The notes under the pieces are model-generated. The model had not been told where the DNA came from. It saw only the letters and a list, made by a program, of their open reading frames with translations, and searched no databases. From Planctomycetota bacterium (GTDB taxonomy: Bacteria; Planctomycetota; Planctomycetia; Gemmatales; Gemmataceae): 35,131 nucleotides of DNA. Position numbers and translations under genes: made by a program. Shown here one piece after another: positions 1,980 to 12,148 of this stretch. Position 1 is the first letter of the stretch. Each line of letters opens with the position of its first letter. The stretch spans positions 1 to 35,131 of the forward strand of contig JAIOPV010000268.1 of NCBI GenBank assembly GCA_021413735.1, given 5' to 3'.

Positions 1980-3356
1980 ATGAGCCAGAAGACGTGGGGC
2001 GGGCGGTTTGAAGGCGGAACCGACGCGCAAGTGGAGAAGTTCACCGAGTCGATCACGTTCGACCGCCGACTCTTCCAGCACGACATCCGGGCAAGCCGAG
2101 CTCACGCTGCCATGCTCGCCGAGGTTGGGCTAATCTCCGCTGCCGAGGCCGATGCGATTCGCTCTGCTCTCGACGAAATCGGCAGCGAGATCGAAGCCGG
2201 GAAGATGGAGTTTTCCATCTCTCTTGAAGACATCCACACACACATCGAACGTGCCCTCATCGCACGCCTAGACGATGTCGGGCGGAAACTGCACACGGGT
2301 CGCAGTCGGAACGATCAGGTCATCACCGATGTCAAGTTGTGGGTTCGCGACGCCATCGACGATCTCGACGGGTTGCTCGTGGAATTGCAGCGTGCGTTCG
2401 TGGCGTCGGCCGAGCGAGAACACGGCGTCGTGCTGCCTGGCTATACGCATCTTCAGCGAGCGCAGCCGGTGCTCGCGGCTCACTACTTCCTCGCGTATGT
2501 CGAGAAGTTCCAGCGTGACCGTGAACGCCTCGCCGACTGCCGCAAGCGTGTGAACATTCTTCCGCTGGGTGCCGCGGCTCTCGCAGGCAGTTCGCTCCCC
2601 ATCGACCGCGAATCGGTACGCCAAAAACTCGGCTTCGATTCCATCGCCCGCAACAGCCTCGATGTCTCCAGCGACCGCGATTTCTTGCTGGAGTTTGTGT
2701 TCGTGCTGTCGATGATCGCCACGCACTTGAGCGGTTGGGCCGAGGAATGGGTGATCTGGAGCACGACCGAGTTCAACTTCCTCGATCTGCCGGATGCGTT
2801 CTGTACGGGGTCGAGCATTATGCCCCACAAGAAGAACCCCGATGTACTGGAACTGACCCGCGGCAAAACCGGCCGCGTGATCGGTGCGTTGCAGGGATTG
2901 TTTGTGCTGGTGAAGGGCCTGCCGTTGGCGTACAACCGCGACCTGCAAGAAGACAAGCAAGCCCTGTTCGACGCATACGACACGGTGGGCGGCTGCCTGG
3001 CCGTGGCGGCCCCATTGGTTCTTCAGACGAAACTGCGGCGTGAGGTGATTGTGTCGCGACTCGAAGACGGCTTCCTCGACGCGACGACGCTAATGGAATC
3101 GCTGATCTCGCGGGGCGTGCCGATGCGTTCGGCTCACGAGGTGGTCGGCAAGTTGGTGCGGCAGTGCGAGCAGAAGCAGTGCCGGCTCGTGGACTTACCG
3201 GACGCTGAGTTCGATCAGCCGGGCGCGAGCGGTGCCGACATCAAAAAGACGCTTGGCGTGGCGAATGCGCTGGCGGCGTTTAAGAGTTACGGTTCGACGG
3301 CTCCGTCGGAAGTGGCGAAGCAACTCGACGAGTGGAAAACCCGTCTCGGAATGTGA
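1980..3356 (+). CDS. argH: Argininosuccinate lyase
   Basis: This enzyme cleaves argininosuccinate to arginine and fumarate, the last step of arginine biosynthesis, in the cytoplasm as a homotetramer. The 458-residue length is normal. Family hallmarks are visible: the N-terminal WGGRF segment, the HTGRSRNDQ motif near residue 108, [10 protein letters not shown] near 160, and the fumarase/aspartase-superfamily signature loop [11 protein letters not shown] at 277-287, which carries the catalytic serine. The start is the ATG at 1980, with CAGGG about eight bases upstream. Downstream genes on the same strand are a small membrane protein and lysA, so this is an amino-acid biosynthesis neighbourhood, though a long palindrome separates argH from the next gene. 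Confidence 0.97.
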
Positions 3357-8153: not shown

Positions 8154-8207
8154 TTCGCCGCTTGCGGCGTTGCACTTGTCGAATCGTGCAACGCCGCAAG
8201 CGGCGAA
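8154..8207. repeat. Nested palindrome, family 1 (copy b), possible terminator
   Basis: The 22-base perfect arms 8154-8175 and 8186-8207 surround a 10-base loop. The arms share TTCGCCGCTTGCGGCGT with the 1899 and 14317 copies and continue TGCAC as in the 12095 copy. It starts 17 bases after the stop of the HEAT protein, where an intrinsic terminator would be expected, but no T-run follows. The remaining 106 bases before the kinase gene show no clear promoter. Confidence 0.9.
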
Positions 8208-10929: not shown

Positions 10930-11373
10930 ATGTCCACGTTCATTGCCAACGCTGCCACGGTTCAACCGAAGTGGATCGTGATCGACGCGACAGATTTGGT
11001 GGTCGGCCGACTCGCCGCTTCGATTTCCTCGATCCTGCGAGGAAAGCACAAGCCCGACTACACCCCACACACCGACACTGGCGATTTCGTCGTCGTGGTG
11101 AATGTGGAGAAGGTGCAGTTCACCGGCAACAAGTGGGAGCAGAAAGAGTACCAGGACTACTCTCACTACGCTGGCGGTCAGAAGATCACCACGGCCAAGG
11201 AAATGCTGGCGAAGAAGCCCGAAGAGATCATTCGCCGAGCGGTGAAGCGAATGATGCCGCGTGGCCCGCTGGGCTTCAAGCAAATGACGAAGCTCCGCCT
11301 CTACGCTGGCAACCAGCACCCGCATCAGGCACAACAACCGCAAGAACTCAAGCTGAAGAACAAGAACGGCTAA
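10930..11373 (+). CDS. rplM: 50S ribosomal protein L13
   Basis: This 147-residue protein of the large subunit binds 23S rRNA early in assembly. The sequence carries the family's N-terminal WIVIDATDLVVGRLAASI, the LRGKHKPDYTPHTDTGDFVVVVN segment and the MMPRGPLGFKQM motif. The start at the ATG at 10930 gives normal length; a frame extending to 10876 is in phase but adds non-homologous residues. rpsI follows after 68 bases, the usual L13-S9 order found in many bacteria, so the two are probably co-transcribed from the promoter proposed at 10836-10863. Confidence 0.97.
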   Translation: MSTFIANAATVQPKWIVIDATDLVVGRLAASISSILRGKHKPDYTPHTDTGDFVVVVNVEKVQFTGNKWEQKEYQDYSHYAGGQKITTAKEMLAKKPEEIIRRAVKRMMPRGPLGFKQMTKLRLYAGNQHPHQAQQPQELKLKNKNG

Positions 11374-11441: not shown

Positions 11442-12077
11442 ATGGCCGAGAAGAAAGCAAGCAAGGCACCGCGAACGTATTACATCGCCACCGGCCGGCG
11501 GAAGACCGCTGTTGCTCGCGTGCGAGTGACCGAGGGCAAGGGCACCATCCTCATCAACGACCGCCCGGTCGATCAGTACTTCTCGGAAGACAAGGACCGC
11601 GCTGCGGTTCTCGGGCCGTTGAAGATCACCGATCAGGCGAACCGCGTTGACGTGTTCGTGAAGACGACAGGCGGCGGCATCACCGGGCAGGCCGGAGCCG
11701 TGTGCCAGGGTCTGGCGCGAGCGATGAAGACGATGTTCAGCCCGGCTTCGGAACAGAAGTCACGCGTGTTCAACAACACAACAATCATCAAGGGTTATCA
11801 GGACGAGAAGAAGGCCAGCGAGAAGGCGAAGGCGATTCTGGCGAAGCCGCCAGCACCGGCTCCTCGCGTGATGGGCGGACCAGCACTGCTGCCGGTTCCA
11901 GTTCCAGGTGCAACCCCGGCTGCTCCTGCCGCACCGTTGGACCCAGCCGAAGTCGCAACGGGTATGATCAAGAAGCTTCGCGACTCGGGTTACCTGACCC
12001 GTGACGCCCGCATGAAGGAACGTAAGAAGTACGGTCTCCGCGGTGCTCGCCGTGGGACGCAGTTCTCGAAGCGCTAA
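11442..12077 (+). CDS. rpsI: 30S ribosomal protein S9 with large internal insert
   Basis: The small-subunit protein S9 (uS9) has a C-terminal tail that reaches the P-site tRNA. Conserved parts are YYIATGRRKTAVARVRV (14-30), GGGITGQAGAVCQGLARAM (77-95), and the C-terminus GYLTRDARMKERKKYGLRGARRGTQFSKR (183-211), including the terminal SKR. The protein is 211 residues, against about 130 for the family. Between the helix ending near residue 96 and the segment beginning near 167-172 there is an extra stretch of about 70 residues: a Lys/Glu-rich part followed by a Pro/Ala-rich linker (KPPAPAP, PVPVPG, TPAAPAAP). The frame is open and both flanks are intact, so this is an insertion within a functional gene. 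It follows rplM. Confidence 0.95.
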   Translation: MAEKKASKAPRTYYIATGRRKTAVARVRVTEGKGTILINDRPVDQYFSEDKDRAAVLGPLKITDQANRVDVFVKTTGGGITGQAGAVCQGLARAMKTMFSPASEQKSRVFNNTTIIKGYQDEKKASEKAKAILAKPPAPAPRVMGGPALLPVPVPGATPAAPAAPLDPAEVATGMIKKLRDSGYLTRDARMKERKKYGLRGARRGTQFSKR

Positions 12078-12094: not shown

Positions 12095-12148
12095 GATTTG
12101 CCGCTTGCGGCGTTGCACCTTTGAGTGCAACGCCGCAAGCGGCAAATC
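12095..12148. terminator. Bidirectional hairpin between rpsI and the sugar kinase (family 1, copy c)
   Basis: The 24-base perfect arms 12095-12118 and 12125-12148 surround a 6-base loop. The stem begins 17 bases after the rpsI stop and its right arm ends on the base next to the stop codon of the convergent PfkB gene (12149-12151). With GATTT at one end and AAATC at the other, it gives a short T-stretch on each strand. The core is identical to the other family 1 copies (GCCGCTTGCGGCGTTGCAC). Confidence 0.75.

Follow-up and report, generated by a model that had tools for sequence, protein, structure and literature searches.

What is the additional stretch that interrupts ribosomal protein S9 (uS9) at this locus, where did it arise, and what might it do? 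The window, meaning the whole stretch of 35,131 nucleotides that we analysed, carries rpsI on the plus strand at positions 11442 to 12077. The frame comprises 211 codons with no internal stop, and its translation ends in SKR. The Pfam model Ribosomal_S9 (PF00380) matched the product in two stretches, with 135.6 bits against a cut-off of 22.5 and the best stretch at residues 18 to 108. The protein also passed the NCBIfam model for 30S S9, PRK00132.1 (137.5 bits; cut-off, 112), and stayed below the cut-off of the archaeal-type uS9 model TIGR03627 (74.5 against 162.75 bits). The best-matching S9 chains in the PDB, of 130 residues, aligned with residues 13 to 96 and 175 to 211 and left the insert in between. 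A genome search recovered one S9 gene in the source genome (G000), the rpsI of the window. Its upstream neighbour is rplM (positions 10930 to 11373, plus strand), which codes for the 147-residue ribosomal protein L13; this gene order is that of E. coli. In an alignment of 23 S9 proteins, GRRK, GGG, LTRD-RMKERKKYG and the final KR were invariant. Judged by family models, by its core and SKR tail, and by a single gene beside rplM, the product is a bacterial uS9. After rpsI we observed a palindrome with an 18-nt arm (window 12100 to 12143, and again at 8157 to 8204). It is a dispersed repeat: the arm has 232 forward and 258 reverse copies genome-wide at up to two mismatches, and a reversed control gave 2 and 5.

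The size of the insert was measured between conserved motifs. From GTGRRK to TRD, the window S9 counts 170 residues and an S9 without insert 97, so the net insert is 73. The RA-to-DAR stretch (93 residues, against 20 in E. coli) gives the same figure. Using residues 97 to 168 as the bounds, we distinguish four parts, all on the plus strand. The N-terminal canonical half (residues 1 to 96; positions 11442 to 11729) closes with the GLARAMK helix. It is followed by insert module A (residues 97 to 133; positions 11730 to 11840) and by linker B (residues 134 to 168; positions 11841 to 11945), which is rich in Pro and Ala. The C-terminal canonical half (residues 169 to 211; positions 11946 to 12077) holds the GMIKKLRDSG helix, the TRDAR motif and the basic tail to SKR. 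A preliminary description of this DNA had proposed an S9 of 211 residues with both halves intact and an SKR end, interrupted at residues 97 to 167 (nucleotides 11730 to 11942) by a Lys/Glu-rich start and then a Pro/Ala-rich linker. The translation and the Pfam, NCBIfam and PDB matches bear out the first part, and the bounds were right to within a few residues. The composition was also about right, as residues 97 to 133 hold 7 Lys/Arg and 4 Asp/Glu among 37, and Pro or Ala makes up 21 of the 35 residues from 134 to 168.

We then compared S9 across the order Gemmatales. S9 matches were obtained in 83 of 95 Gemmataceae (f1) genomes and in 90 of 102 genomes of the order, of which both families were drawn; the S9 search gave no match in the other 12 of the 102. 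Insert lengths were available for 89 S9 proteins; a script supplied 88 of them and inspection by eye that of G058, with G054 excluded because it is cut by a contig end. All 89 carry an insert at the same loop; G060 has the shortest, of 11 residues, genus g24 the longest, of 76, and family f102 has 15 to 21 residues. In the window genus 19 genomes were searched, and the long form of the insert (46 to 76 residues) was present in all 17 that had an S9 match, including two single-contig assemblies. The source genome of the window is a draft in 293 contigs, which would leave room for a sequencing or assembly error. This recurrence across independent assemblies refutes that reading, to which we assign a negligible chance.

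Outside the order, the loop behaved differently. None of the 141 genomes of the same class with an S9 match has the insert, so the length of this loop is otherwise very stable: 138 matches span 363 nt, one spans 366 nt, that of G531 spans 363 nt, and the S9 of G522, which is cut at its end, has no insert at this loop. Elsewhere in the Planctomycetota, S9 proteins have up to 12 extra residues; in all 20 genomes found to have at least 2 extra, at most 1 lies at this loop. Ten of those 20 proteins were aligned, and their remaining extra residues sit in the N-terminal beta hairpins. Such hairpin extras, up to 12 in all, were seen in families f8 and f68 (L233-L237, L241, L243 and others). We considered these small inserts as parallels and rejected them, as their positions differ from this loop. 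The sample from the phylum outside the class consisted of 156 re-searched genomes, which take in every one of the draw with an E value worse than about 2.7e-43 and of which a few are fragmentary and miss the loop (e.g., G123, G185, G328 and G241); roughly two dozen phylum genomes with better E values were left out of the S9 measurement, the best Gemmatales S9 having an E value of 3.1e-43. Among 134 S9 loci outside the order taken from best-scoring matches, 133 have 0 to 2 extra residues between the anchors and one is N-masked; this set is biased against inserts, may hold some species twice and is not the basis of our claim about the outside of the order. A phage collection yielded seven records, in which the S9 matches were partial and covered at most 30% of the query. 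None of the titles and abstract openings of the literature matches listed concerned an S9 insert in this group.

By sequence comparison the insert is thus specific to the order: every Gemmatales S9 that we measured has the enlarged loop, and no S9 measured in other groups does. The preliminary description had called the insert lineage-specific, which these data support and sharpen, and had asked if it was shared by the group or particular to this organism. It is confined neither to the window organism nor to its genus. The first combination of findings named there as fatal to the idea, relatives with a normal S9 together with a sequencing or assembly error, did not materialise, since the relatives examined all have an enlarged S9 and independent assemblies agree. 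Two further records were conspicuous. At G178:C7:114815-115178, S9 is split into two overlapping matches in different open frames, resembling a frameshift. Record L066 (G057:C35) is titled Candidatus Kuenenia stuttgartiensis and encodes an S9 with the Gemmatales insert; the title is probably wrong.

The history of the insert was traced on a tree of the S9 core, with the insert cut out, combined with L13. The tree holds 98 of 101 rows and was built by a quick method whose program warned of long branches; G061, L155 and L157 were dropped by a script pattern and not because of their content. The long form appears in 33 rows from seven genera, which fall into one group (SH-aLRT 99) and require one change on the tree. 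The presence of an insert in the order, set against ten outgroup rows, likewise requires one change (SH-aLRT 83). G005, the row adjoining the long-insert group, has 32 additional residues. Among the remaining Gemmatales, lengths of 11 to 37 residues are scattered over the tree, and growth before the long form was therefore not steady. These results fit a single origin of the order's insert and a single origin of the long form.

To what extent is the inserted sequence constrained? Across the 33 long inserts, module A retains the motifs K-x-M-F-S/G/A-P/S and E/D-Q/R-K/R and a stretch around T-I-I/V-K/R, and in most it ends in a charged DEKK-x-REKAKA. The linker (134 to 168) aligns poorly and varies in length, also between close relatives. 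The mean frequency of the top residue was 0.82 in the N-terminal core, 0.62 in module A, 0.39 in the linker and 0.91 in the C-terminal part. We pooled pN/pS over ten independent close pairs and obtained point estimates, without error bars, of 0.117 for the N-terminal core, 0.145 for module A, 0.333 for the linker (134 to 170) and 0.060 for the C-terminal part. Gapped columns between close pairs affected the linker in 11 of 13 cases and module A in 2 of 13. Conservation of module A across the seven genera is moderate; the g20, g24 and g6 versions have diverged, and pN in module A is high (0.238) in the pair G044/G047. By these measures module A is under purifying selection near the level of the S9 core, and the linker is looser. 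Given this near-core level of constraint on module A, we conclude that the segment is translated and that module A is functional, and we regard it as virtually certain that the insert is real and translated.

These values bear on a simpler explanation, in which a low-complexity linker grew by tolerated, near-neutral change in large genomes and docks nowhere. The Pro/Ala richness of the linker and its different lengths in close relatives are in keeping with such growth, as is the lack of a common motif, by eye, in the short inserts of most of the order. S9 is also not the sole enlarged ribosomal protein of this genome. We compared the S10-spc stretch of G000 (L318, contig C95) with 25 queries from E. 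coli (24 ribosomal proteins plus rpoA), of which 17 were matched. L22 ends there in a Pro-, Ala- and Thr-rich tail of about 47 residues, and S8, L4, L16 and L2 exceed their E. coli counterparts by about 23, 16, 14 and 12 residues within the aligned part; none comes near 73. Near-neutral growth does not readily account for the core-like pN/pS of module A, for motifs common to seven genera, or for an insert that is missing from none of the 89 S9 proteins. We therefore regard it as a possible explanation of lesser probability.

A second explanation would remove the segment from the mature protein by splicing, excision or ribosome skipping. We found no support for it beyond the arrangement itself, an insert flanked by intact S9 halves, as expected of such an element. 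Pfam and NCBIfam scans of the whole window S9 (E up to 0.001) detected no intein splicing domain and returned S9 models only. To our knowledge, all inteins are well above 73 residues, which also counts against a spliced-out segment. Moreover, selection within the insert acts at the amino acid level, and insert lengths are graded across the order. Loss of the segment from the mature protein is accordingly very unlikely.

We used AlphaFold2 to predict the structure of the window S9. The model showed an S9 fold with a mean pLDDT of 77.9, and residues 11 to 100 scored 94 to 97 per ten-residue block. Helices were predicted at residues 80 to 99, 112 to 134 (blocks of 60 and 81) and 168 to 182, with a disordered linker between the last two (blocks of 46 to 65) and a poorly predicted C-terminal tail (about 53). 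The underlying alignment contained 23 sequences and module A in only two of its rows, the window and L063, so the module A helix is weakly supported. The top Foldseek matches of the model were ribosome entries. In the model the enlarged loop joins two S9 helices. The preliminary description had read the insert as a surface extension of the 30S subunit, and exposure of the insert on the head surface appears likely. A specific contact made by module A seems somewhat less assured, albeit likelier than its absence.

Taken together, we consider it probable that the insert elaborates, in this order alone, the loop between alpha2 and alpha3 of S9 on the 30S head, and that module A is a docking element and the linker a strap. 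This loop, which links two helices of the globular domain, would have lengthened in the ancestor of the order, with 11 to 37 residues in most genera, and would later have been enlarged to 46 to 76 residues in one group that includes the window genus. Module A (K-x-MFSP..EQK..., TT-I-K, ..DEKK..REKAKA) may be a charged helix docked beside S9 on the outer face of the head. Linker B would then return the chain as a strap, without displacing the conserved C-terminal helix or the tail that extends to the P site. The most likely effect would be on the shape of the head surface and on partner binding, rather than on decoding itself.

Which surfaces would such an element meet? In published ribosomes, uS9 contacts h39, h40, h41, h43, uS7 and uS10 (PMC11711686). 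A second paper describes one reconstruction of the Thermus 100S particle in which the 30S heads touch at uS7 and uS9, an RNA polymerase contact with uS2 and h40, and an E. coli-based dimer model involving uS9, uS10 and h39 that was not borne out in Thermus (PMC6177447). For Staphylococcus aureus, h26, h40 and uS2 are given as the corresponding surfaces in a third (PMC5620080). A surface element on S9 would thus adjoin known docking surfaces. A more specific and rather less probable proposal is that module A is a lineage-specific docking site at the back of the 30S head, near uS7, uS9, uS10, h39/h40 and uS2, which would couple these ribosomes to a partner of their own. Candidate partners would be a hibernation factor, a polymerase, or a membrane or nucleoid protein. 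This bacterial group is noted for heavily folded internal membranes. The uS7, uS9, uS10, h39, h40 and uS2 surfaces are among those used, or proposed, for ribosome dimers in other bacteria and for RNA polymerase contact (PMC6177447, PMC5620080).

Another explanation is that protein replaced RNA and the insert offsets a shortened tip of 16S rRNA helix 39/40 beside S9. Of 102 Gemmatales genomes, 57 yielded a 16S rRNA and 49 gave both values; G088 (a 134-nt foreign-looking rRNA fragment), G028 (a scripted length running past a divergent end), G019 (segment missing) and G089 (no S9) were excluded. An h39/40 hairpin of at most 57 nt, as compared with 60 nt in most others, occurred in 19 of 25 genomes with long inserts and in 3 of 24 with short ones, and the two lengths were correlated (Spearman rho -0.50). 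However, this raw correlation means little, because a control helix, h17, gave an equally strong one (rho 0.50), and the link was gone once ancestry was counted (independent contrasts r -0.07, p 0.65, n=48). Exceptions ran in both directions: g24, g14, G017 and G020 combine long inserts with hairpins of 58 to 60 nt, and g12, g16 and g38 combine short inserts with short hairpins. Contrasts of the controls h33, h44 and h17 with insert length were not significant (p 0.51, 0.48 and 0.084). We do not claim an h40 trade-off or co-evolution, which failed the phylogenetic test, and replacement of RNA by protein appears improbable.

The 16S rRNA of these bacteria showed other peculiarities. The h33 segment measured 60 to 64 nt in 41 of 47 Gemmatales genomes and 50 to 54 nt in 6 (L249-L264, L277-L312). 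Relative to E. coli, h33 (at about position 1017) is mostly 13 to 16 nt longer in Gemmatales and 3 nt longer in five other Planctomycetia. The tip of h44 is shortened in many Gemmatales, not in all. At L302 (G491:C203:7581-9931) the 16S match spans 2351 nt, as opposed to about 1530, seemingly with a large intervening stretch.

In two relatives, G088 and G072, a large protein carries a further S9 domain as its C-terminal part. A 1131-residue frame of G088 (contig C300, L231:2998-6393, minus strand) combines a TIR_2 domain (33.2 bits; cut-off, 28) with a Gemmata-type S9 that includes module A; an AAA_22 match was weak (21.8 bits, below the cut-off of 27). Relatives of its N-terminal part (L326, L327, L329 and L333, in the same and other genomes) have ends that look repeat-like by eye. 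In G072 (contig C7, L232:886-3351, plus strand) an 821-residue frame has a diverged S9 domain at its end (57.8 bits). Directly after it, a 984-codon frame begins at 3352 and is cut by the end of the stretch; it matches Druantia DruE (E 1.5e-93) and has a DEAD helicase domain. These two cases raise the possibility that defence systems recruited S9 as a sensor or decoy.

The enlarged loop has consequences beyond this locus. A constrained internal module in one bacterial order indicates that the 30S head can be remodelled by internal protein insertion. The insert is a clear molecular signature of Gemmatales, and module A marks a place to seek a lineage-specific ribosome contact. Caution is warranted when structural models derived from the S9 of E. 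coli are applied to this order.

Finally, we compared the window S9 with known S9 systems. It shares with the 130-residue E. coli S9 both halves, the GRRK motif, the GGG-x-x-GQAGA helix, the TRDAR...QFSKR tail, a single copy and the rplM-rpsI order, and it differs in the 73 additional residues between two helices. The S9 proteins of the Planctomycetota families f8 and f68 also have extra residues, yet at most one of them at this loop. In human RPS16 (146 residues; sequence checked against PDB chains) the inter-helix stretch also exceeds that of E. coli, with 31 against 20 residues, but these eleven extra residues are, by eye, unrelated in sequence to the window insert. We take the human and Gemmatales loop enlargements to be independent. 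Bacterial S9 chains of 150 to 173 residues, such as 8crx and 5v93, presumably from Cutibacterium and Mycobacterium, and mitochondrial uS9m of 244 to 430 residues are likewise cases of an old protein enlarged in one lineage. In the 8crx, 5v93 and uS9m rows compared, however, the extra residues precede the core, whereas in the window S9 the core itself is interrupted internally by a module and a linker.
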